In this document: positions 4,735-40,481 of the stretch, one piece after another | Numbering within the stretch: the first letter of the stretch is position 1 | Layout of the letters: each line of letters starts with the position of its first letter | Source of the DNA: Fibrobacter sp. | GTDB lineage: Bacteria > Fibrobacterota > Fibrobacteria > Fibrobacterales > Fibrobacteraceae | DNA length: 40,514 nt | Direction of reading: 5' to 3' | Assembly: GCA_031271785.1 (NCBI GenBank) | Contig: JAISUZ010000084.1 | Span: 1-40,514 of the forward strand | Made by a program: the position numbers and the translations under genes | The notes under the pieces: generated by a model | What the model saw: the letters and a program-made list of their open reading frames with translations, nothing else | Databases searched by the model: none | What the model was told of the DNA's origin: nothing

Positions 4735-5984
4735 GTGAGAATGGATACTTCGGCGTCTTCGGCGGAAAATATGTCCCCGAAGTGCTTCGCCGCCCTATTG
4801 ACGAGCTGGAAAAAGGATTCTATGAAGCCATTCAAGATCCTTCGTTTCTGGAAGAACTGAAAACGCTTCAGGATAACTTTATCGGCAGGCCTACCCCGCT
4901 TTTGTTTGCAAAGAACGCGACCGCCGATTTAGGCGGCGCAAAGATTTACATTAAAATGGAAGGGCTCGCGAACACCGGCGCCCACAAAATCAATAACGCC
5001 ATCGGGCAAGCGCTCCTGGTGAAACGCATGGGAAAAACACGCGTTATCGCCGAAACCGGCGCCGGACAACACGGGGTTGCCACCGCCGCCGCCTGCGCTC
5101 ACCTCGGAATTCCCTGTGAAATTTACATGGGCGAAGTGGATGTGCGCCGCCAGCAACCGAACGTCGCCACCATGGAAATGTACGGCGCGAAAGTGATTCC
5201 CGTGCGCTCCGGAAGCAAAACGCTCAAAGACGCGATTAACGAAGCCATGCGCGACTGGGCAAGCCACCCGGACACTACGCACTATCTCATCGGTTCGGCG
5301 CTCGGCCCGGCTCCATTTCCCGATATGGTGCGCATATTCCAATCGGTGATCGGACGCGAAGTAAAAGAACAGGCCGCCGCGAAAAATCTGGATATCGCCG
5401 CCCTCGTCGCTTGTGTCGGCGGCGGCTCGAACGCCATCGGATTCTTTGAGCCGTACCTGGAAGCAACCGCGCCGAGACTTATCGGCGCCGAAGCGGGCGG
5501 TATCGGAACCGGTTACGGCGAAAACGCCGCACGCATGACCGGAAACGCCGCCCGGGAAGGAATCGTTCACGGTTACAAAAGCCGATTTCTCCTCACCGAA
5601 GACGGACAAATGGCGGAAACACGCTCCATCTCCGCCGGGCTCGATTACCCGGGCATCAACCCGCAATTCGCCGACCTCGGGGTTTCCGGCAGAGTGGAAT
5701 TCATGGCGATTCCCGACAAAGAAGTCCTGGAAGCGCTCCAATACTTTGCACGCAAAGAAGGCGTATTCTTCGCTCTCGAAAGCGCGCACGCCGCCGCCGC
5801 CGCGCTCCGCATTGTCAAAGAAATCCCTAAGGACAAAGCGATTATTATCAATATGTCCGGGCGCGGCGACAAAGATATCTTCATCACTTCGCCCGTATTC
5901 CGCAACAGGCAATGGAAAGAATTCCTGAAGTCCGAGCTCACGCGCCTCGAATCCGGCGCCGACATTTATCATGCCAAAAACTGA
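4731..5984 (+). CDS. trpB: Tryptophan synthase beta subunit (TrpB)
   Basis: TrpB joins indole and serine to make tryptophan using pyridoxal phosphate. The 417-residue protein has the PLP lysine Lys86 in NTGAHKINNA, the phosphate-binding GGGSNAIG loop, the ETGAGQHG segment and SAGLDYPGI. The close correspondence to classic TrpB (family length about 400) argues for TrpB1 rather than the longer TrpB2 type. AGGAG sits six bases before the ATG. Its start overlaps the trpCF stop by four bases and it is followed by trpA, its partner for indole channelling. Confidence 0.97.
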   Translation: MSENGYFGVFGGKYVPEVLRRPIDELEKGFYEAIQDPSFLEELKTLQDNFIGRPTPLLFAKNATADLGGAKIYIKMEGLANTGAHKINNAIGQALLVKRMGKTRVIAETGAGQHGVATAAACAHLGIPCEIYMGEVDVRRQQPNVATMEMYGAKVIPVRSGSKTLKDAINEAMRDWASHPDTTHYLIGSALGPAPFPDMVRIFQSVIGREVKEQAAAKNLDIAALVACVGGGSNAIGFFEPYLEATAPRLIGAEAGGIGTGYGENAARMTGNAAREGIVHGYKSRFLLTEDGQMAETRSISAGLDYPGINPQFADLGVSGRVEFMAIPDKEVLEALQYFARKEGVFFALESAHAAAAALRIVKEIPKDKAIIINMSGRGDKDIFITSPVFRNRQWKEFLKSELTRLESGADIYHAKN

Positions 5985-5994
5985 GGAGAATTTT

Positions 5995-6774
5995 ATGAAA
6001 CCCACCTCCCCTATCCGCTTAATGGCTCACCTCGTTGCCGGATTCCCGGATTACGAAACCGGGCTCCTCATCGCCGATTCCCTCGTGAAAGGCGGCGCGC
6101 ACTTTTTGGAAGTACAGTTTGCCTTCACCGACCCGAGCGCCGATGGTCCGGCGATTCAAACCGCCAATGCTCTCGTACTCTCCAAAGGGTTTACCACAGC
6201 CCGCGCATTTGAATTTGTAGCGGCGATTCATGAACGGCACCCGGATATACCGGTATTTGTCATGACTTACGCTTCGCTCGTTTACACCCCGCAAGTGAAA
6301 CACTTTGTCGCGGAAGCGAAAGCCGCCGGTGTCGCCGGGTTAATCATACCCGACCTCCCGTTCGATCACGACGAAGGACTCACCGAAGCGTGCAAAGCAA
6401 ACGGAATGGTAAATATCCCTGTGGTCGTACCGTCCATGAGCGAAGAGCGTCTCGCACAAATTATTGAGATGAAGTTCCCCTACCTCTACACCGCGCTCCG
6501 CGCCGGGATCACCGGGCAAAAAACCGTCATCGACCAAAATACGCTCGACTTTATCCGGCGCGTGAGCGAGGGCGGCGCGAAAGTACTCGGCGGGTTCGGT
6601 ATCGGCAGCGGCGAACAATCCAAAACGCTCGCCCCTCATGTCTATTCGGTGATCGCGGGCTCCGCATTCATCAACATCGTGCACGAACTCTTCGATGAGA
6701 CGCACTTGGAAGAATCCCGGAAAAAAATCGCTCAGGCGATCGAAGCCAAAGCGCGCGAACTCAGCGGCGGGTGA
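5995..6774 (+). CDS. trpA: Tryptophan synthase alpha subunit (TrpA)
   Basis: TrpA cleaves indole-3-glycerol phosphate and passes indole to TrpB. The start at 5995 is preferred because GAGGAG (5983-5988) precedes it by six bases; this gives 259 residues, while the in-frame ATG at 5971 would lie inside trpB. Glu39 (in LEVQF) and Asp50 (in DPSADGP) match the catalytic Glu49/Asp60 pair of E. coli TrpA, and the RAGITG loop and the GGFGIG phosphate site are present. It is more divergent than the other trp genes: ELG reads EVQ and SRAG reads LRAG. It is the last gene of the operon; a structured repeat begins seven bases after its stop and may help end transcription. Confidence 0.93.
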   Translation: MKPTSPIRLMAHLVAGFPDYETGLLIADSLVKGGAHFLEVQFAFTDPSADGPAIQTANALVLSKGFTTARAFEFVAAIHERHPDIPVFVMTYASLVYTPQVKHFVAEAKAAGVAGLIIPDLPFDHDEGLTEACKANGMVNIPVVVPSMSEERLAQIIEMKFPYLYTALRAGITGQKTVIDQNTLDFIRRVSEGGAKVLGGFGIGSGEQSKTLAPHVYSVIAGSAFINIVHELFDETHLEESRKKIAQAIEAKARELSGG

Positions 6775-6780
6775 GTAACA

Positions 6781-6967
6781 GCGGCAGGGATGCGACCCGA
6801 ACGGGCGGAGACGTGCGGAATTTCTGTTCTTCGGGCATGGAAAGCATGATAATTGCAATTTCTGATTTGAGAGAAATTCCGCGCGGCTCCGTTTCAGCAG
6901 GTGGTTTCACCACCGCTGAAATGCCAGCCCGGTTCCGGAGCGTATGCGGAGGAAGCCGCCCGTAAAA
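6781..6967. repeat. Structured intergenic repeat, copy A
   Basis: This 187-base element shares its ends and core with 23465-23588. Shared blocks include GCGGCAGGGATGCGACCCGA at the left and GGAAGCCGCCCGTAAAA at the right. Stems: CGGAG (6806-6810) / CTCCG (6887-6891), enclosing a perfect 11-base helix 6815-6825 / 6872-6882; and TTTCAGC (6892-6898) + GGTGG (6900-6904) / CCACC (6910-6914) + GCTGAAA (6915-6921). Copy B has GGCGG/CCGCC in place of GGTGG/CCACC, so pairing is preserved. It lies between the converging trpA and the minus-strand metalloprotease gene, ending 15 bases from that gene's stop. The function is unknown; a bidirectional terminator or a 3'-UTR RNA element is plausible. Confidence 0.75.
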
Positions 6968-6982
6968 AAGGTTTCTTTATCT

Positions 6983-7633
6983 TCAAAATCCGGCAGAGAC
7001 CTTGTAAAACAGAAACAAAAAATCGTTCCGCCAACCGGAAAAAGCGCCGGCAAAACCGATGGAAATCGTCCGGAAAATAATCGCGGCATTGAAAAAAATA
7101 AAAGCCGCTATAAACAGATAAGAAAAAAGAATACCGCAATCTTTAATATCGGTTTGCCGCGGACTCAAATCCCTCTTCACGGCAAACGCGTGAAAAGCAA
7201 AACTAACGCCGACCGGCACATCAAAAAACGGAATAAAATCCGGAATAATCACCAAACGAAAAACCAAAAGAACATAAGTATAAACCGGCAGGCAGTAAGG
7301 AGCGAGAGCGATAAAAACATTCCGCGAATACCGCCCGCTGTGCCGCATCATCCCGCCGGAACCGTTCGTCGCCTCAAAAGAATGAATGCGCTGAAAAAAC
7401 AGCAGCCCCACAATCGTATGCGCGAGTTCATGAGTAAAAGTCTCAAAAAAATCCATATTTTTCCGAAGCAGCCGCCGCAGAAAAAAATACGCGACCACAC
7501 CGGCGCCGAAACCGAAAAAACACCGGTAATGCGCGGCCGCATCAATGCCCGCCCGGAAAAGCGAAAAAGCATTCACAGCGATAAAAACGAGCAAAACCGG
7601 GTAAGAAATTATTTTTAGAAATCGAAACAACAT
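6983..7633 (-). CDS. Putative membrane zinc metalloprotease (M50-like)
   Basis: This 216-residue protein is strongly hydrophobic, with about five membrane segments (near residues 5-25, 38-55, 104-126, 128-150 and 165-190). A zinc-binding HExxH motif, HELAH, lies at 68-72 at the start of a hydrophobic stretch, as in M50 site-2-type proteases. A possible third ligand is the Asp in TDIKDCG near 161-166, but the canonical NxxPxxxxDG motif is not evident. The hydrophobic profile and HELAH favour this strand over the lysine-rich plus-strand frame opposite it. It lies 85 bases downstream of the rRNA methylase gene on the same strand. Family M50 is inference; the substrate is unknown. No PDZ domain is visible. 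Confidence 0.6.
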   Translation of the reverse strand: MLFRFLKIISYPVLLVFIAVNAFSLFRAGIDAAAHYRCFFGFGAGVVAYFFLRRLLRKNMDFFETFTHELAHTIVGLLFFQRIHSFEATNGSGGMMRHSGRYSRNVFIALAPYCLPVYTYVLLVFRLVIIPDFIPFFDVPVGVSFAFHAFAVKRDLSPRQTDIKDCGILFSYLFIAAFIFFNAAIIFRTISIGFAGAFSGWRNDFLFLFYKVSAGF

Positions 7634-20595: not shown

Positions 20596-20911
20596 GGGCG
20601 TGCCCCGGCGGCTGCATCTCCTGCATAAAAAGAGAACCGCCGGGTCGGCTGTTCTTCGGGCTACCCGCCGGTCGGTGCCGGATATTTTGGTTCTGCGGGT
20701 ATGTAACTTTTTGGAAAAGGGATACGGGACAGAGGACATGATTGAGTCTTCCGATCCCATTTTATGCATGAGTCGAGATCAATCGGAAATGTAAGACTTC
20801 TTGAATCTGCGCTGTTGCTTAATACCTTGTCCCGTATCCCTAATTTTCATGCCTGGTTTTAGAAATATCCGGCACTGCGCATAAATACGCACCCTCCGCC
20901 TGCCTCACGCG
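20596..20911. repeat. GGGCGTGCCCC repeat, copy 1, interrupted by a palindromic insert
   Basis: The element begins with GGGCGTGCCCCGGCG (20596) and ends with CCTCCGCCTGCCTCACGCG (20911), as do the copies at 31799 and 40246. CCGGCGG pairs with CCGCCGG (about 20605-20611 / 20637-20643). The central motif GGGCTACCC-CCGGTCGGTGC is shared. Here the GTGC/GCAC hairpin is split by a segment of about 190 bases with perfect inverted ends. The right end abuts the stop codon of the minus-strand ddh gene at 20912. It fills the gap between converging fabV and ddh. Confidence 0.75.
20675..20872. repeat. Nested palindromic cassette inside repeat copy 1
   Basis: TGCCGGATATTT (20675-20686) and AAATATCCGGCA (20861-20872) are a perfect 12-base inverted repeat. 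Inside lies a second perfect inverted repeat of 14 bases, AGGGATACGGGACA (20718-20731) / TGTCCCGTATCCCT (20828-20841), and TTCCGAT (20749-20755) / ATCGGAA (20782-20788). The core with ATGTAAGACTT followed by TCTGCG-TG-TGCTTA recurs at 31995-32028. There is no reading frame of note. It could be a miniature mobile element or a large hairpin module. Confidence 0.65.
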
Positions 20912-21838
20912 TTAATACTTCACTCTTTCGAGCCGTTCCTTTACCGTATCGCCTTTGATGAAATCGAGCGGCGGACGTTCCACCATGGTAAAGCAGCCGA
21001 AGGCGCTTTCCGAGGCAGCCCGGAACGCAGCGCGCGCCGACGCGTACATCATGTTCGCAGTCATCACCGGATTTTTTCCGGCAAGCGTAATTTCCACTTT
21101 CACATTGGTTCCGCGATTAACCAAATGCCCCTGGTGTTTATCGGTATCGAACTTTGCAATACTTGAGACAAATTTTACCTGGGTGGGGTCGTTTACAAAG
21201 TAAGGATGATTTTTAATTTCCCGTTCGATGCGTTTCTGTTCTACTTTGTCTGCAACCACATAAACGAGGCGCTTTTGCATTCCCGGTTTTTTCCCGGGGA
21301 GCGTTAAAGATACGGCATCCCGGACACCCCGGATATCTTTTACTTCGGTGGTGTGCCCCATGCTGCGCCCGGGGCCAAACGTGGTGAAGGTCTCCCCCAT
21401 CGGAGAAAGCTGTGCAAACAAAGTACGCTGAACGGAATCAAAGCCCGGATCCCAACCGGTGGATAAAATCGACACGGTTTTATTTTTGCGCGCGACTTTG
21501 CCGATTTCTTCGCGGTAAGCGATAATTTTCGGATGAGAATCGAAACAATCGACGGTGTTGAATCCGAGGTTTAAAAACTTTTTGACATCGTCTTTCACAT
21601 GACCGCTGGGGCCTGCGCAGAGAATCACATCGGGTTTCACTTTCAGAGCGGAGACATCGGAAACTACAGGGATTCCGGCGGGGATTCCCGTATTTTTCCC
21701 GCCGGCATTGCGGCGGATAACCCCCACAATATGGATGTCGTTTTCTTTACCGAATTTGGCGAGATGCTCCTGATGAATTTTCAAAATGGCCCGCCCGATG
21801 TTTCCGAAACTGCTGATTGCGATGTTGATTTTTTTCAT
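20912..21838 (-). CDS. ddh: meso-Diaminopimelate D-dehydrogenase (Ddh)
   Basis: Ddh makes meso-diaminopimelate from tetrahydrodipicolinate, NADPH and ammonia in one step, feeding peptidoglycan and lysine. The start at 21838 (MKKINIAISSFGNIGRA) puts the dinucleotide-binding SFGNIG loop at the normal N-terminal position and gives 308 residues; a frame from 21874 adds 12 atypical residues. VSILSTGWDPGFDS corresponds to the conserved VSTGWDPG block of characterised Ddh, followed by FGPGRSMGHTTEVKDIRGVRDAVSLTLP. It is transcribed away from ychF across a 120-base gap that has a TATAGT -10-like box on the minus strand. Its stop codon touches the adjacent repeat. Confidence 0.93.
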   Translation of the reverse strand: MKKINIAISSFGNIGRAILKIHQEHLAKFGKENDIHIVGVIRRNAGGKNTGIPAGIPVVSDVSALKVKPDVILCAGPSGHVKDDVKKFLNLGFNTVDCFDSHPKIIAYREEIGKVARKNKTVSILSTGWDPGFDSVQRTLFAQLSPMGETFTTFGPGRSMGHTTEVKDIRGVRDAVSLTLPGKKPGMQKRLVYVVADKVEQKRIEREIKNHPYFVNDPTQVKFVSSIAKFDTDKHQGHLVNRGTNVKVEITLAGKNPVMTANMMYASARAAFRAASESAFGCFTMVERPPLDFIKGDTVKERLERVKY

Positions 21839-23056: not shown

Positions 23057-23464
23057 GGTCTTGCACTTTTTTTGACCCGGCAAATGTCTTAACGAGTTAT
23101 ACCTCCATTATTATCGCAAACGCGGGGCGCGTGCGGCAAACAAAGACATGGATCCCGGCTCGGAGGCGGAATGACAGGGAATATAACCACTGTATTCGAT
23201 TTCGCCGGCTCAATTATATTTAAAGGGGGAAGCATCCCCCTCGCTTCCGCCTCGCAAAATCGCGCACCCAAGTTCCTTATTTTATGATCCGGCTTCCGTT
23301 AGTTGCCGGGGTGCGCGGCGAGGCTTACGCTCCCCCCTCAAAACCGATTCTTCAAGCATGAAATGCTTGGAAATGGTATATCGGGAACGGATCATTCGGA
23401 TACCTGAGTCAGCCATTCCCTATTATCTATTACCTGACTTTTATACCGGAAGAACCTGCATGAT
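23057..23464. repeat. Repeat-bearing intergenic region with a long imperfect hairpin
   Basis: No convincing gene is seen here. A long imperfect hairpin spans 23225-23337: GGGGG (23225-23229) against a CCCCCC run (23332-23337), CCTCGC (23250-23255) against GCGAGG (23318-23323), and CGCGCACCC (23261-23269) against GGGTGCGCG (23309-23317), the last two perfect. A small perfect hairpin CAAGCAT-GAA-ATGCTTG lies at 23353-23369. A GACATGGATCCCGG segment near 23145 is palindrome-like. The region looks like an accumulation of intergenic repeat modules between converging genes. Confidence 0.55.
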
Positions 23465-23588
23465 GCGGCAGGGATGCGACCCGAACGGGCGGAGATCCCG
23501 CAGGGAGCTCCGTTTCGGCAGGCGGTTTTACCGCCGCTGAAATGCGAGCCCGGTTCCGGAGCGTATGCGGAGGAAGCCGCCCGTAAAA
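23465..23588. repeat. Structured intergenic repeat, copy B
   Basis: This is the second copy of the element at 6781-6967, shorter (124 bases) because its variable helix is only TCCC-GCA-GGGA between CGGAG and CTCCG. The second stem is TTTCGGC (23513-23519) + GGCGG (23521-23525) with loop TTTTA and CCGCC (23531-23535) + GCTGAAA (23536-23542). Relative to copy A both sides of the inner helix changed together (GGTGG/CCACC to GGCGG/CCGCC). It lies two bases from the stop codon of the minus-strand gene that follows, the same relative place as copy A. Confidence 0.75.
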
Positions 23589-23590
23589 AT

Positions 23591-24100
23591 TTAGGCTTGT
23601 TTTTTTGAATTTCTTTGCTGCCGGATCACAGCGGCAAGACTTGTTGCCATTCCGACGAGCAGCATCATGCTCACGGCATAAGCGCCGAGCCCCGCTTTTA
23701 CCGATATCATCGGAAACCCGATGCGCACAAAGTAAGAAGATGTCTGGTAAATGAAATACCATAAACCGATGAACGCAGAGAGTCCGAAAATCAAAGAGCC
23801 GAAGGGAAAGAAAAACGCGCAAACAGCGGCTAAAAGAATGCTTGCGAAAATGAGATAAAATACTTTGATTTGAACTTCCTCAAAGTTTAAAGCCGCTCCC
23901 ATGTTTTCTATCCAGGTTTCCAATAGCCGGTCTTCCGTTTGAACGCCCGCCATATCAATGCCGGAAGCGAGTTGATAAGCCGTGGGTTCAAGCACCGTCT
24001 TTTCGGAGCAAGATACCGTAAGGACCGGAAAAAGGAACAGCAGAAAACAAAGGAGGTAAGGGAAAGAAATTAACCGTTGTAAAACTTTTTCCTGCTTCAC
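23591..24100 (-). CDS. Hypothetical four-span membrane protein
   Basis: This 169-residue protein has about four membrane spans: residues 13-30, 80-97, 100-120 and 135-158. The first span ends in LTVSCSEK, which could be read as a weak lipobox but more likely starts a periplasmic loop (about 32-78). The C-terminus is basic (RQQRNSKKQA), predicting a cytoplasmic end. Its start overlaps the stop of the SUMF1-domain gene as ATGA, so the two are translationally coupled and probably act together. The family was not recognised. Confidence 0.7.
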   Translation of the reverse strand: MKQEKVLQRLISFPYLLCFLLFLFPVLTVSCSEKTVLEPTAYQLASGIDMAGVQTEDRLLETWIENMGAALNFEEVQIKVFYLIFASILLAAVCAFFFPFGSLIFGLSAFIGLWYFIYQTSSYFVRIGFPMISVKAGLGAYAVSMMLLVGMATSLAAVIRQQRNSKKQA

Positions 24101-26381: not shown

Positions 26382-29300
26382 TTAAATGTTCGTTCCCGCC
26401 TCCATGAGGAATCCGCCGCCGTCGCCTCCTTCGGGACCGAGTTCAATCCGGTAATCCGCAAGCCGGATCACATCGGGGTGATGTTCGATAAGCACCACCG
26501 TATCGCCGCGGGCTACCAAACGGTGCAAGAGCGTCCAAAGAAGCTGAATATCCGCGAGATGAAGCCCCGTAGTCGGTTCGTCCAAAAGATAAAGCGTGCC
26601 GGAAGCATGCGCCCGGGAAAGTTCCGCCGCGAGTTTCATCCGCTGAGCTTCTCCGCCGGAAAGCGTTGTTACGGATTGCCCCAAACGCAAATAGCCGAGC
26701 CCTACATCGCACAAAATGCTCAACGGTTTTACAATGGAAGAAATCCCTTCAAAAAAGGTGCACGCTTCATTCAAACGCATATCCAAAACATCGGCGATGT
26801 TTTTTCCCTTAAACTCAACCGAGAGCGTTTCCTGATTGTAGCGTTTTCCTTTGCATTCTTCGCAGACTTCCCAAACGTCGGATAAAAAGTGCATGGAGAG
26901 AGAAACCACGCCTCTGCCTTCGCAAGCGCTGCAGCGCCCGCGCGCCACGTTGTAGCTGAAACGCCCCACATCGAAGCCTTTCATTTTGGAAACGTCGAGA
27001 CGCGCAAATAACTGCCGGATCGAATCTAAAACGCCGGTGTAACTTGCCGGCGTAGAGCGCGGCGTTCCCGAAATCGGCGATTGATCTACAAGCAGCACTT
27101 CTTTCACGGACGGCGGGAGTTCAATGAGTTTTCCCGAAAGTTTTTTCTTTTTCCCGCGGGACAGCGCGGTTTGCACCGCCGGATAAATTTCATCCATCAC
27201 AAGAGAACTTTTTCCGGAACCCGAAACACCCGAAACCACCGTAATCGCCTTTGTGGGAATTTGTACGGAAATATTTTTCAGGTTGTGAGCGTTTAAGTTT
27301 TTGAATTTCAGGAATGAATCGAATGGCCGCGCCGGAACGTTTTCCGGGTTTTGAAGTTTCTTTTTTCCGCTCAGGTATTTCACGGTTTCGCTCTGAGGGT
27401 ATTCCTTGACAGCGGAAGCTTTGGCTAACGCTTTGGGCGCGCCGAGGGCTACGACTTCTCCGCCGAATTCTCCGGCGGAAGGACCGAGATCGAGAAGATG
27501 ATCGGCGGAACGAATCACATCCATATCGTGTTCCACCATCACGAGCGTATTCCCGAGTTTTTTCAAATGCTTTAACGTCTCTAATAATTTATGCGTATCG
27601 CTTTGATGCAAGCCGACCGTGGGTTCGTCCAAAACATAAAGCACGCCTTCCAAACCGCTCCCGATTTGGCTTGCGAGGCGAATGCGCTGCGCTTCGCCGC
27701 CGGAAAGCGTATCCCCCGCTCTTGAAAGCGAAAGATAACCGAGCCCGACGTTGATCAAAAAGTCGAGCCGCCCCAAAATTTCCCGCAAGAGCGGAGCCGC
27801 CACCAGTTCGTCGCCGCCGGAAAACCGGCAGGCCTCAAACCACTGTTTCGCTTTCGCAATACTTTTCGAGGTCACGGACATAATGCTCTCGTTTTGAATC
27901 AGCACCGAACGGTATTCGGGCTTCAAACGCTCCCCATGACAATCCGGACAAACTTCGTTATTCTCATCCGTACCGAGTCCGTAACAGGTTTCGCAAGCGC
28001 CCCAGTGCGTATTGAAACTGAAATTTTTCGGATCCAGCTTGCTTTCCATGTACCAGTGGCAAGAAGGGCAACCGGGTACAAGAGAAAATGTTTCCGGCCG
28101 ATTCTCCGTTTGAACGCCGAGAATCCCGTTGCCGTCGCGGTAAGCGCGTTCCAGAGCCTCCTGCAAACGCACTTTATTTTTTGCGCTCAATACAAAATAA
28201 TCCGTCACCGCAAAAATTTGAGCCACATTTTTCCCGATGGAAGTCAGCGGCAAATCCGTTAATCTTCCGTTCATCATTACTTTGCGGTAACCCATTTCGG
28301 TGAGACGCTCCGAAATCAATTTCGGGCCGGAGATTTCCGAAACCATCGCCGCCCGGTTACTTTTTTGAATCCAAACCGGCGTGAGAATCGTAAGTTCGCG
28401 GCCTTTGGAAGTTTCCCAGAATTTATCCGCAATTTGCGGCACCGTCCAAAAACGAATCGGCTCTCCGCAATGAATGCAGTGCATTTTCCCGGCGCGCGCC
28501 CACAAAATACGGAAGTAATCGTAAATCTCCGTAAGGGTCGCCACAATACTCCGCGGGCTCCGGCTGGAACTGCCCTGATCGATTGCAATGGCGGGAGCGA
28601 GCCCGCGTATCGCATCAATGCTTCCCCGGTCCATGCGCCCCAAAAACCGGCGGGCATAAGTGCTGAGCGTTTCCACAAACCGCCGCTGCCCTTCCGCAAA
28701 AAGCGTGTGAAACACGAGGCTCGATTTCCCCGAACCCGAAACACCCGAAACCACCGTAATTTCATGCCGCGGAATCGTGACCGAAATATTTTTCAAATTG
28801 TGTTTTCGCGCGCCCACAATTTCAATATCCAGAGAAGCGGAATCGGTTTCCGCCACGCTCTCCAAAATGTCTCCGGTAAGCGCTTCCCGGTTTAAAACTT
28901 TCTTCAGGAAACGTCCCGTATGCGATCTTTCATTTTCCGCAATTTGTTCCGGCGTACCGGCGGCAATTACTTCGCCGCCCGCTTCACCCGCTTCAGGTCC
29001 GAGGTCAATCACATAATCCGCGCACTTAATCACATCCAGGTTGTGTTCGATAATCACCATACTGTTCCCCTGACTCCGCAAACGGGCGAGGCAGGAAAGC
29101 AAGCGGTTAATATCTTCAAAATGAAGCCCGGTCGTCGGCTCGTCGAGAAGATACAGCGTGCGCCCGGTACCGGGGCGTCGCAGCTCCGTTGCAATCTTGA
29201 TGCGCTGCGCTTCGCCGCCGGAAAGCGTGGTGGAAGGCTGCCCGAGTTTCAGATAACCGAGCCCGATCTCCTGAAGCAATAAAAGCGGCTCGCGGATCTT

Positions 29301-31664
29301 CGGAATATCCGTGAAAAAAGCAATCGCCTCATCGATACTCATGTCGAGCACTTCGGTAATCGTTCTTCCTTTATAATGAATCTCCAACGTCGCCGCATTA
29401 AAACGTTTACCGCCGCAAACTTCGCAAGGCACCTGCACATTCGGGAGAATCTGCATCTCAACGCTGATCACCCCCGCGCCCTCACAGGCATCGCACCGCC
29501 CGCCCGCGACATTGAAACTGAATCGCCCCTTCGCATAGCCGCGGGCTTTACTTTCGGGCATCTTTGCAAACAAATCGCGAATATCGTCAAAGATTTTCGT
29601 ATAAGTCGCCGGGTTCGAGCGCGGCGTTCTCCCGATCGGACTTTGGTCGATCTCAATCACTTTATTGATATGCTCAAGCCCGGTAATCTTATCGAACTCT
29701 CCGGGAGGATCTTCCGCGCCATGAAAATGGCGCGCGAGTTCGCATTTCAGAATCCGGTTCACGAGCGTACTTTTTCCGGAACCCGAAACGCCCGTCACCA
29801 CCGTGAACGTCCCATCCAGAGGAATCTTCACGCTGATATTTTTCAGATTATTTTCCCGCGCCCCTTTGATTTCCAGGCACGGCGTTTTCGCAGTCACTTT
29901 TTTGCGTTCCTGCGGAATTTCGATTTTCTTTTTCCCGCTGAGGTATTGCCCGGTCAGCGACTTCGGATTCTTAATCAAATCGTCAACGCTTCCCGCCGCC
30001 GTAATCGCGCCGCCGCGAATACCCGCGAAAGGCCCCACGTCAATCACATAATCCGCGTAACGCATGGTCTCTTCGTCATGTTCCACCACAATCAAACTGT
30101 TCCCCTGGCGGCGCAAACGCTCTAAAATAGAAAGCAGCATTAAATTATCGCGCGGGTGAAGCCCGATACTCGGCTCATCCAAAACGTAAAGCACGCCCTG
30201 AAGCCCCGCCCCCACAGCGCTCGCGAGGCGAATCCGCTGCGCTTCCCCGCCGGAAAGGGTGGCTGCCCCGCGAGAAATCGTAAGATACCCAAGTCCCACC
30301 GCTTTCAAAAAACCGAGACGGTTTCGAATCTCTTTAAAAATCTCCTTTCCGACCCGTTCCTCTTTTTCGGACAACACAAGACGATTGAAAAAATCTTCCG
30401 AACGGTCAATCGACCACTCGCTGATCTCGTGAATTCCGTGACCGTGAAACCGCACGGAAAGCGCCGCGGGGTGAAGCCGCGAACCCAAACATTCGGGACA
30501 AACTTCATCAAGCATAAAACGGCGGAAGTGCGCAATGTGCCATTGCTCCCAAACTTCATTCATCACGGGAATCACACCCGAAAGCGCCGGCTCCCCCTCA
30601 ATCCCGTATAAAACCGCATGTTTCGCCTCTTCGGACAAATCTTTCCAGGGCGTTGAAAGTGAAAAGTGCTTGCGCTTTGCAATCGCTCTCAACTCTTTCC
30701 AGCCGTAACGGGTAAAAATCATATCCCCGTCCGCCTTCTGGCATTTCAGCGCGCCGTCGTTAATGGATTTCGTCTCGTCGGGCACAATCAAACCCGGATC
30801 GAATTGATAACTGCGGCCAAGACCCTTACAAGCGGGGCACTGCCCTTTCAGATCGTTAAACGAAAAGAAACGCGGCTCCAACTCGGGAATCGAAATCCCG
30901 CAATCCACACACGCAAGCTCCGTCCCCTGCAAGAAATACTCGCTGTCATCCACAAGGAACGCCACGAGTTTCTCGCCGGTAAGGCGGAGCGCCTGCTCGA
31001 TCGCCTCCCGCACACGGGAAATCCGTTTCCGCTCAAGCACCACGCGGTCCGTCACCACTTCAATCGTATGCTTCTCGTAACGCTCAAGCGGCGGCACCTC
31101 TCCGATCGCATAAATCTTTCCGTCCACCCGCACGCGGGAAAACCCTTTTTCCGCAAGCTCGGCAAGCTCTTTCCGGTATTCACCCTTGCGCTCCTGCACA
31201 ATCGGCGCGAGCACCACCAAATTCCGATTCTCGTAATCCGTATAAAGCCTGTCCACAATCTGATCTTCGGTCTGCGCCCGAATCACCTTCCCGCATTGCG
31301 GACAATGAGGCACCCCGAGCCGCGCATACAAAAGACGGTAGTAATCCATAATCTCAACGGAAGTCCCCACCGTTGAGCGCGGATTGCGATTGATCGTCTT
31401 CTGGTCGATGGAAATCGTCGGCGAAATCCCGCGGATCGTCTCCACAAGCGGCCGCTTCATAGTTCCGATAAACTGCCGCGCATACGCCGAAAGCGACTCG
31501 ATAAACCGCCGCTGCCCCTCTTGAAAAATCGTGTCGAAAGCAAGACTCGACTTTCCGGAACCCGAAACTCCCGTAATCACCACAATGGAATCGCGCGGAA
31601 TCTGAAGATCCAAATGTTTCAAGTTATGTTCATGAGCATCACGAATAATGAGCGAACGAGTCAT
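26382..31664 (-). CDS. uvrA: Double-length excinuclease ABC subunit A (tandem UvrA)
   Basis: UvrA recognises bulky DNA lesions and loads UvrB. Usual UvrA is about 940 residues; this one has 1760, made of two complete UvrA units in one frame with the junction near residues 935-950. Four Walker A motifs (GVSGSGKS) start near residues 32, about 626, about 970 and about 1480, with four LSGGEAQR signatures. Each unit keeps its CxxC zinc modules: CVDC/CPAC and CEGAG/CEVCGG in the first, CPSC/CETC/CPDC and CEGRG/CEECKG in the second. Nothing suggests a frameshift or decay. A similar tandem arrangement is known in Chlamydiae. The protein may act as a covalent dimer. Its promoter carries a candidate LexA site. 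Confidence 0.95.
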   Translation of the reverse strand: MTRSLIIRDAHEHNLKHLDLQIPRDSIVVITGVSGSGKSSLAFDTIFQEGQRRFIESLSAYARQFIGTMKRPLVETIRGISPTISIDQKTINRNPRSTVGTSVEIMDYYRLLYARLGVPHCPQCGKVIRAQTEDQIVDRLYTDYENRNLVVLAPIVQERKGEYRKELAELAEKGFSRVRVDGKIYAIGEVPPLERYEKHTIEVVTDRVVLERKRISRVREAIEQALRLTGEKLVAFLVDDSEYFLQGTELACVDCGISIPELEPRFFSFNDLKGQCPACKGLGRSYQFDPGLIVPDETKSINDGALKCQKADGDMIFTRYGWKELRAIAKRKHFSLSTPWKDLSEEAKHAVLYGIEGEPALSGVIPVMNEVWEQWHIAHFRRFMLDEVCPECLGSRLHPAALSVRFHGHGIHEISEWSIDRSEDFFNRLVLSEKEERVGKEIFKEIRNRLGFLKAVGLGYLTISRGAATLSGGEAQRIRLASAVGAGLQGVLYVLDEPSIGLHPRDNLMLLSILERLRRQGNSLIVVEHDEETMRYADYVIDVGPFAGIRGGAITAAGSVDDLIKNPKSLTGQYLSGKKKIEIPQERKKVTAKTPCLEIKGARENNLKNISVKIPLDGTFTVVTGVSGSGKSTLVNRILKCELARHFHGAEDPPGEFDKITGLEHINKVIEIDQSPIGRTPRSNPATYTKIFDDIRDLFAKMPESKARGYAKGRFSFNVAGGRCDACEGAGVISVEMQILPNVQVPCEVCGGKRFNAATLEIHYKGRTITEVLDMSIDEAIAFFTDIPKIREPLLLLQEIGLGYLKLGQPSTTLSGGEAQRIKIATELRRPGTGRTLYLLDEPTTGLHFEDINRLLSCLARLRSQGNSMVIIEHNLDVIKCADYVIDLGPEAGEAGGEVIAAGTPEQIAENERSHTGRFLKKVLNREALTGDILESVAETDSASLDIEIVGARKHNLKNISVTIPRHEITVVSGVSGSGKSSLVFHTLFAEGQRRFVETLSTYARRFLGRMDRGSIDAIRGLAPAIAIDQGSSSRSPRSIVATLTEIYDYFRILWARAGKMHCIHCGEPIRFWTVPQIADKFWETSKGRELTILTPVWIQKSNRAAMVSEISGPKLISERLTEMGYRKVMMNGRLTDLPLTSIGKNVAQIFAVTDYFVLSAKNKVRLQEALERAYRDGNGILGVQTENRPETFSLVPGCPSCHWYMESKLDPKNFSFNTHWGACETCYGLGTDENNEVCPDCHGERLKPEYRSVLIQNESIMSVTSKSIAKAKQWFEACRFSGGDELVAAPLLREILGRLDFLINVGLGYLSLSRAGDTLSGGEAQRIRLASQIGSGLEGVLYVLDEPTVGLHQSDTHKLLETLKHLKKLGNTLVMVEHDMDVIRSADHLLDLGPSAGEFGGEVVALGAPKALAKASAVKEYPQSETVKYLSGKKKLQNPENVPARPFDSFLKFKNLNAHNLKNISVQIPTKAITVVSGVSGSGKSSLVMDEIYPAVQTALSRGKKKKLSGKLIELPPSVKEVLLVDQSPISGTPRSTPASYTGVLDSIRQLFARLDVSKMKGFDVGRFSYNVARGRCSACEGRGVVSLSMHFLSDVWEVCEECKGKRYNQETLSVEFKGKNIADVLDMRLNEACTFFEGISSIVKPLSILCDVGLGYLRLGQSVTTLSGGEAQRMKLAAELSRAHASGTLYLLDEPTTGLHLADIQLLWTLLHRLVARGDTVVLIEHHPDVIRLADYRIELGPEGGDGGGFLMEAGTNI

Positions 31665-31712: not shown

Positions 31713-31798
31713 GCGAATATACAAAAAACCGGCGAAAAAGACAAGGGATCGAGAAATTCGAAATATCTTTCCCCTACCCCAGGACAAAATTTTTTAAT

Positions 31799-31925
31799 GG
31801 GCGTGCCCCGGCGCATTTATATAAAACCGGCATGAAAACCGCGCCGGGCCGGCGTGTTTCCGGGCTACCCTCCGGTCGGTGCTGCGCACTGCGCGCAAGC
31901 GCGCACCCTCCGCCTGCCTCACGCG
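31799..31925. repeat. GGGCGTGCCCC repeat, copy 2
   Basis: This element starts with GGGCGTGCCCCGGCGC and ends with CCTCCGCCTGCCTCACGCG. The first stem is CCGGCGC / GCGCCGG, the second GTGC-TGC-GCAC, and the third TGCGC/GCGCA, with arms that differ from copies 1 and 3 yet still pair. It lies upstream of uvrA in the divergent gap before the Rpn gene. Confidence 0.75.
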
Positions 31926-40245: not shown

Positions 40246-40394
40246 GGGCGTGCCCCGGCGCATCCACCGTCACCGTGATCTTGAATACGCCATACGGAAT
40301 CCCGTCATTCTGATGCGCCGGGTCGGCGCGGCTACGGGCTACCCTCCGGTCGGTGCTTTGCACCGGCTTCGCCGCCCTCCGCCTGCCTCACGCG
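40246..40394. repeat. GGGCGTGCCCC repeat, copy 3
   Basis: The element begins GGGCGTGCCCCGGCG (40246) and ends CCTCCGCCTGCCTCACGCG (40394). CCGGCGCATC (40255-40264) pairs perfectly with GATGCGCCGG (40312-40321). GGTGC-TTT-GCACC and GGC-TTC-GCC hairpins lie in the right half. The preceding gap 40117-40245 holds no feature that I can support beyond the presumed lptE promoter. Confidence 0.75.
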
Positions 40395-40399
40395 AAGAA

Positions 40400-40481
40400 A
40401 AGGCATTCGTATATGCCTCCAAAAACATTGTCAGCACGCAAGCGTATTGACGTTGTTTTTTACCGCATATACAAATGCCTT
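40400..40481. repeat. Short palindromic cassette next to repeat copy 3
   Basis: The left arm AAGGCATTCGTATATGCC (40400-40417) is identical to that at 31931, and GCATATACAAATGCCTT (40465-40481) is its partner with one mismatch. Relative to the 31931-32051 cassette the central 50 bases holding the AGACTT hairpin are missing and a short AAAACATTGT segment is added. Both share the sequence GCACGCAAGCGTATTGACG. Confidence 0.65.

Follow-up and report, generated by a model that had tools for sequence, protein, structure and literature searches.

Two elements in the window, that is, the whole 40,514-nucleotide stretch of Fibrobacter sp. DNA analyzed here, share flanks and differ in a helix in which both strands have changed together. 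They raise the question of what structure is conserved at these sites, where it originated, and in which kind of single strand it folds. The original prediction placed the elements at 6781-6967 and 23465-23588; both are present, but their true ends lie at 6959 and 23580. Copy A (6781-6959, plus strand) was matched by covariance model R1 at 6780-6967 (123.4 bits) and by a second model, R2, with 30.4 bits, and copy B (23465-23580, plus strand) was matched by R1 at 23464-23588 (129.5 bits) and by R2 at 23465-23580 (45.1 bits). Both are closed by GCGGC/GCCGC, and a conserved CC trails the 3' stem of copy A, up to 6961. The trpA gene (tryptophan synthase alpha subunit, as read from its translation; 5971-6774, plus strand) lies outside the element and ends 6 nt before copy A.

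We aligned and folded 18 genomic copies, which yielded a common structure of 37 pairs. In this alignment, 97.4% of cells were paired compared with a mean of 85.8% after shuffling, and both-sided changes were observed in 17 of the 37 pairs compared with a shuffled mean of 10.4; none of 500 shuffles reached either observed value. The covariation score was 0.328, against 0.118 for shuffled alignments (0 of 500 reached it) and 0.074 or less when partners were slid by 1-3 columns. For model R2, 34 diverse copies were used, with their apical loops shortened and no enterobacterial sequences among them. Here, 97.7% of cells were paired, double changes occurred in 18 of 33 pairs (0 of 500 shuffles), and the covariation score was 0.363, compared with 0.105 for shuffled alignments and at most 0.100 for slid partners. 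Stems that vary independently in a larger alignment had been named in advance as the outcome that would speak against selection on structure, and the opposite was found with both 18 and 34 copies. There is practically no doubt that the conserved single-strand fold, a closing stem and four hairpins around a conserved core, is real.

The consensus reads, in order, closing stem, A, GGGAUN (with N'-AGCCC), GUGA, P1, P2, P3, P4, and closing stem, with CCC/GGG as P1 and CGGAG A.../...CUCCG as P2. All four hairpins vary in length, and the length of the core is constant. The N-N' pair between GGGAU-N and N'-AGCCC was seen as A-T, G-C, C-G, and T-A (subfamily II; 34-sequence alignment). In copy A, all on the plus strand, the closing stem (helix 1 of the 18-copy alignment) pairs GCGGC at 6781-6785 with GCCGC at 6955-6959; across copies, it covaries as GCGGC/GCCGC, GTGGC/GCCAC, GCGTG/CACGC, GCGTT/AACGC, and GCGAA/TTCGC. 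The 5' strand of the core helix in the common fold, GGGATGC (6787-6793), has as partners GC at 6923-6924 and CCC at 6928-6930. P1 (6796-6805) is CCC-GAAC-GGG here and CAG-GAA-CTG, CCTGACCAGG, or CCTGTACAGG elsewhere. P2 (6806-6891), seen in the sequence and as helix 5 of the 18-copy alignment, is the variable-length helix already recognized in the original prediction; its base pairs CGGAG with CTCCG (6806-6810 with 6887-6891), and its inner helix in copy A is formed by 11 perfect pairs between GCGGAATTTCT (6815-6825) and AGAAATTCCGC (6872-6882). P3 (6892-6921; TTTCAGCAGGTGG...CCACCGCTGAAA) is helix 6, with double changes in 10 of its 12 pairs. The exchange of GGTGG/CCACC for GGCGG/CCGCC that had first drawn attention to the two copies forms the middle of P3 (6900-6904 with 6910-6914 in copy A). 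P4 (6933-6954; TTCC...GGAA) is helix 7 and appears elsewhere as CCGCC/GGCGG or CCCGCGC/GCGCGGG. In copy B, the 18-copy alignment places P1 at 23480-23489, a short form of P2 at 23490-23512, P3 at 23513-23542, and P4 at 23554-23575, all on the plus strand. A long-range pairing of ACGGGCGG...CCGCCCGT was rejected: it lies outside the conserved fold, its 5' strand shifts to ACTGCGG while its 3' strand stays CCACCC, and it shows no covariation. This 5' strand belongs to hairpins P1 and P2 instead.

With DNA energy parameters, the same five-helix junction was the minimum-energy structure for the Bradyrhizobium copy, the IncN copy, and one Fibrobacter copy, and it appeared as the centroid for the F copy. 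Two of the five DNA-folded examples (Bradyrhizobium and IncN) did not exceed their shuffled versions in stability. On the plus strand in the Fibrobacteraceae genome, 37 G-T pairs were counted against 15 A-C mismatches, an excess which indicates that the plus strand is the folding strand and is equally compatible with RNA and single-stranded DNA (ssDNA). In the small plasmid set, this excess was absent (8 versus 7).

BLAST with copy B found 37 places in its own genome. With R1, the same 2.28 Mb genome gave at least 136 matches, at least 132 of them at E < 0.01; these counts are lower bounds, as 150 of 1504 candidates were scored. Contig ends carry many of the copies (e.g., C39:3, C57:1, C30:10, C97:34, and C79:1); the assembly probably breaks at the repeat, and the actual number of copies is then likely higher. 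Across the phylum, R1 matched 53 of 167 genomes, every one in Fibrobacteraceae, a family recognized from copies that equal, with identical score, those of named records such as Fibrobacter intestinalis ATCC 43854. Six other Fibrobacter genomes searched with R2 contained 1-6 copies each, indicating that the expansion belongs to the lineage of the window. Three subfamilies were distinguished by their ends, of the GYGGC/GCCRC, GCGTG/CACGC, and CGGGCAGGG types; in Fibrobacter proper, the ends are GCGTT/AACGC. BLASTN with the element gave no match in relatives because divergence is too high without structure. No Rfam family matched the window at the gathering threshold, and neither the copy B region at E ≤ 5 nor ten alphaproteobacterial and related loci had an Rfam match. 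The element was also unmatched in phage and viral collections, and literature searches on repeats in Fibrobacter and in Alphaproteobacteria and on the raw core sequence returned nothing relevant. Checks proposed with the original prediction, namely, collection of the genomic copies, a covariance model, a covariation test, and an Rfam search, returned at least 132 copies, significant covariation (0 of 500 shuffles), and no known family at gathering or relaxed thresholds. Both window elements are members of a large family without an earlier name.

Several further observations concern these genomes. A second repeat type, GCGTGAGGCAGGCGGAGGG...GGAGGGTAGCCCG..., with a different core, occurs on the minus strand of the window at 31793-31925, ~20600-20930, and ~40315-40421. 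It has the closing stem GCGTG/CACGC and a P4 sequence common to several main-family copies, and in two of its three window copies the 5' flank TGGAGGCATATACGAATGCCTTTTCTTC is likewise shared with several main-family copies. A 1760-aa ORF (26382-31664, minus strand) with fourfold internal DNA repeats of the ATP-binding-cassette type perhaps encodes a fused UvrA-like protein. In two near-identical Fibrobacter loci (L198 and L199, ~1340-1480), the same site carries an element with the same P2, a similar P4, and an unrelated P3; one hairpin is swapped between them. Some Fibrobacter copies (L250, L069, L070, and L068) adjoin housekeeping-like fragments (leuS, nifJ, and carB) that start mid-gene.

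Across phyla, the pattern AGGGATNGTGACCC-N(3,6)-GGGCGGAGAC occurred in 58 stretches of GTDB genomes, from Fibrobacter, Bradyrhizobium, Sphingobium, Sphingomonas, Bosea, Gemmobacter, Tepidicaulis, a Gemmatimonadota, and a Myxococcales MAG. All tested alphaproteobacterial, gemmatimonad, and myxococcal loci but one aligned to R1 over the full length or to the contig end; the Sphingobium locus L129 aligned partially. Three contigs labeled as Treponema, Lachnospiraceae, and rumen Alphaproteobacteria (L116, L117, and L166) look like misbinned Fibrobacter and were excluded as phyla, and L117 is one row of the 34-sequence alignment. Among ten hand-picked non-plasmid copies from Alphaproteobacteria, genes for ParB-like (four), ArdC (three), DUF736, DUF3991, and YspA-like proteins were found in plasmid-like position.

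With alphaproteobacterial copies as queries, PLSDB yielded 200 and 245 matching plasmids, many of them conjugative, from Rhizobium, Agrobacterium, Sinorhizobium, Sphingobium, Shinella, Herbaspirillum, Xanthomonas, Morganella, Citrobacter, E. coli, and other hosts. The annotated neighborhoods are leading regions, with ssb, DUF932, ParB/RepB/Spo0J-like proteins, ArdC-type zincin metallopeptidases, methylases, and toxin-antitoxin pairs. Several plasmids carry two or three copies, in a single orientation within each. In nearly all cases, the gene 5' of the plasmid element is on the opposite strand, with its start at a distance of a few hundred bases; in Shinella, IncN Citrobacter, Herbaspirillum, Leisingera, Xanthomonas, and Roseivivax, copies precede opposite-strand ssb, DUF932, ArdC, or ParB-like genes. 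Sinorhizobium pMl2, whose element has transposon genes as its 5' neighbors, is the one clear exception. The conserved upstream (CUP) elements of IncN are defined as ArdK-regulated upstream repeats (PMC6289460). One IncN plasmid has three copies of the fold in the same orientation in its leading region.

ssDNA promoters govern the first minutes of plasmid establishment. On the F plasmid, Frpo2 lies upstream of ssb, yfjA, yfjB, psiB, and psiA, and Frpo1 lies upstream of ygeA and ygeB; deletion of Frpo1/Frpo2 abolishes early leading-gene expression in recipients (PMC9849209), for which they are also needed according to PMC11541004. An unfiltered R2 search of the 19 kb F leading region gave two strong matches, both on the minus (transferred) strand, and the next best scored 10.7 bits. 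The match at NC_002483 58093-58172 (53.1 bits, E 3e-10) lies 471 nt from the ssb start and adjoins Frpo2, and that at 63481-63560 (41.6 bits, E 1e-7) lies 472 nt from the next annotated leading gene and adjoins Frpo1. BLAST with the F copy found 8129 places in 4003 plasmids, 3086 of them conjugative. An A/T-rich promoter-like hairpin on F, GCAAAATTTTTTACC...GGGTAAAAAATTTTGTGG, which we read as the published promoter hairpin, is separate from the fold, at a distance of roughly 200-250 nt for both matches. The fold resembles the Frpo1/Frpo2 and ssi promoters of F and ColIb-P9: on F, the one of these two plasmids that was searched, it lies on the transferred strand by both Frpo regions, and many plasmid relatives share the orientation toward leading genes; however, the -35/-10 hairpin that defines Frpo/ssi is a distinct structure. 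The homology to the F Frpo regions extends to the family of the window through the two R2 matches. In contrast to the leading-region, transferred-strand location of the plasmid relatives, the window copies have ordinary chromosomal surroundings without leading genes, and no promoter hairpin was noticed by eye. The window copies themselves are not Frpo promoters. Frpo surveys used BLAST with five known sequences and -35/-10 hairpins, and neither the junction fold nor its chromosomal relatives are described in the survey texts covered here (PMC11541004, PMC12826799).

We next consider the setting in the chromosome, using the 52 copies with both neighbors; ORFs were called by a simple longest-ORF rule, so that single distances may be off. 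A convergent gene lies on the 3' side of 31 copies, and convergent pairs are the commonest setting (21 of 52). The convergent stop is within 50 nt in 23 of these 31 copies, compared with 7.3 expected when elements are placed at random within those gaps (0 of 20000 simulations). The remaining three faces of the element were at chance; for example, 5' ends lay by same-strand stops in 9 of 34 cases versus 8.0 expected. Both window copies fit this 3'-end polarity, with the stops of convergent minus-strand ORFs 23 nt from the 3' end of copy A (ORF 6983-7633) and ~10 nt from that of copy B (ORF 23591-24100). On plasmids, the 3' end of the element likewise comes after the stop of the preceding leading gene. 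The plasmid-like tandem arrangement was seen in only 10 of the 52 copies in their own genome.

The polarity toward convergent stops and the prevalence of convergent pairs would be expected if the copies acted in RNA, in which the fold is able to form, as terminators, insulators, or mRNA stabilizers at the 3' ends of the abutting genes. We nevertheless consider this unlikely. The excess is one-sided, with same-strand stops by 5' ends at chance; the abutting gene would carry the reverse complement, yet the G-T pairs favor the plus strand; and plasmid copies have the same 3'-end polarity but precede promoters. A U-run follows the helices on neither strand, and, by reading, the G+C hairpin with an immediate U-run of an intrinsic terminator was not found; the 3' flank opens with CC and is rich in A on the plus strand. 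Like REP/BIME and similar palindromes dispersed between genes, the present element is short, extragenic, present in many copies, and near gene 3' ends; it differs from a palindrome of 20-40 nt in being a multi-helix junction with a conserved core, found across phyla and tied to conjugative plasmids. A reading with somewhat less than an even chance treats the chromosomal element as a small, mobile hairpin of ssDNA, similar to a MITE, that a transposase acting on folded single strands has spread and that has no host function, its fold being conserved for recognition by the enzyme. This would account for the contrast between at least 132 copies here and 1-6 per Fibrobacter genome or a handful in other phyla, for flanks that are mostly unrelated and occur in both orientations, and for a single strand that appears to be the folded one. 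However, 50 copies showed no target-site duplication or sharp border motif, save the CC after the 3' stem, and a clean empty site was not found. Near a radical-SAM gene, the element is absent in G041-like genomes, but this coincides with other gene changes and proves nothing on transposition. Such elements are not typically conserved across phyla in few copies or linked to leading regions. This spread by transposase is compatible with a leading-region source of the fold, which concerns origin.

Use of the element as a recombination or attachment site for exchangeable genes, like the attC of integrons, is very improbable. At one Fibrobacter locus, the 3' flank is constant and the 5'-side gene differs in five genomes, in two of which (G041 and G049) the element is cut inside P3, and P3 is swapped between the two near-identical loci noted above; attC also folds in ssDNA, has variable apical parts, and borders variable gene content. 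On the other hand, the element has five helices in a junction rather than a single hairpin, no invariant core site, and no integrase or cassette array seen beside its copies, and its ends vary freely (GCGTT/AACGC, GCGTG/CACGC, and GCGGC/GCCGC). The attC core GTTRRRY with its complementary inverse core was not found, the terminal stems being GCGTG/CACGC, GCGGC/GCCGC, GCGAA/TTCGC, and TGCC/GGCA. Homologous recombination between repeats explains the same data. At this variable locus (L281-L285), ffh and a conserved block are separated by a variable island that in every case stops precisely where the element has its 3' end; the gene content of the island differs in the five genomes, one of which has, by eye, a WYL-type regulator and a UvrD/AddAB-like protein. 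An integron-like reading of this ffh-linked locus was rejected: the flanking genes vary, but neither an integrase nor a core site was found, so that homologous recombination suffices.

We are very confident that the window elements are related to the leading-region fold. Since the F matches came from a model without enterobacteria and many other plasmids carry the fold in their leading regions, it most likely started out as an ssDNA fold in conjugative leading regions. In the plasmid copies, it is the transferred strand that folds, and the adjoining gene lies on the opposite strand, which favors folding in ssDNA. The folded strand is also the template of the leading genes, and compensatory change preserves its structure, so that the simplest reading would be folding in the single strand as it enters. 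ssDNA is thus more likely than RNA as the folding form. Selection on structure as an RNA element had been proposed in the original prediction; covariation upholds selection on a folded single strand, but action in RNA is not favored, because the plasmids point to ssDNA. That the fold functions in ssDNA on plasmids seems, on balance, the better supposition from sequence comparison. In this home setting, the fold occupies the transferred strand and lies upstream of leading genes by a few hundred bases, next to ssDNA promoters of the Frpo/ssi type. As the strand enters the recipient, the fold would form in ssDNA and aid a module for ssDNA promotion or primer initiation, working like part of an ssDNA-promoter module. 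It might, for example, prevent SSB from covering the strand, or load RNA polymerase or a priming factor. In the Fibrobacteraceae chromosome, the fold appears to have spread by itself, unaccompanied by promoter or leading genes, and is present in at least 132 copies, mainly where its 3' end abuts a convergent stop codon. The chromosomal copies would most likely be remnants, mobile or recombining, that are tolerated where genes end and may have been reused as 3'-end or insulating structures. We regard it as probable overall that this is a conserved single-strand fold at home in the leading regions of conjugative plasmids, with such remnants as its chromosomal copies. More tentatively, and at less than even odds, it may represent a cross-phylum class of functional, junction-defined ssDNA folds that act on entering T-strands and are bound by a widely conserved host factor, one of which became a chromosome-wide repeat with fixed polarity toward gene 3' ends in a single Fibrobacteraceae lineage.

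Detection of ssDNA promoters has so far relied on BLAST with F-like sequences and on -35/-10 hairpins. The covariance model describes a distinct module that is deeply conserved. It reaches rhizobial, sphingomonad, Xanthomonas, and Burkholderiales plasmids in which ssDNA promoters are hard to see, and it could therefore map leading regions in many phyla. The preservation of a structure in several phyla through compensatory changes implies that a specific activity or binding partner exists, which can now be sought, and the chromosomal expansion in the Fibrobacteraceae genome is a natural set of more than 130 variants.
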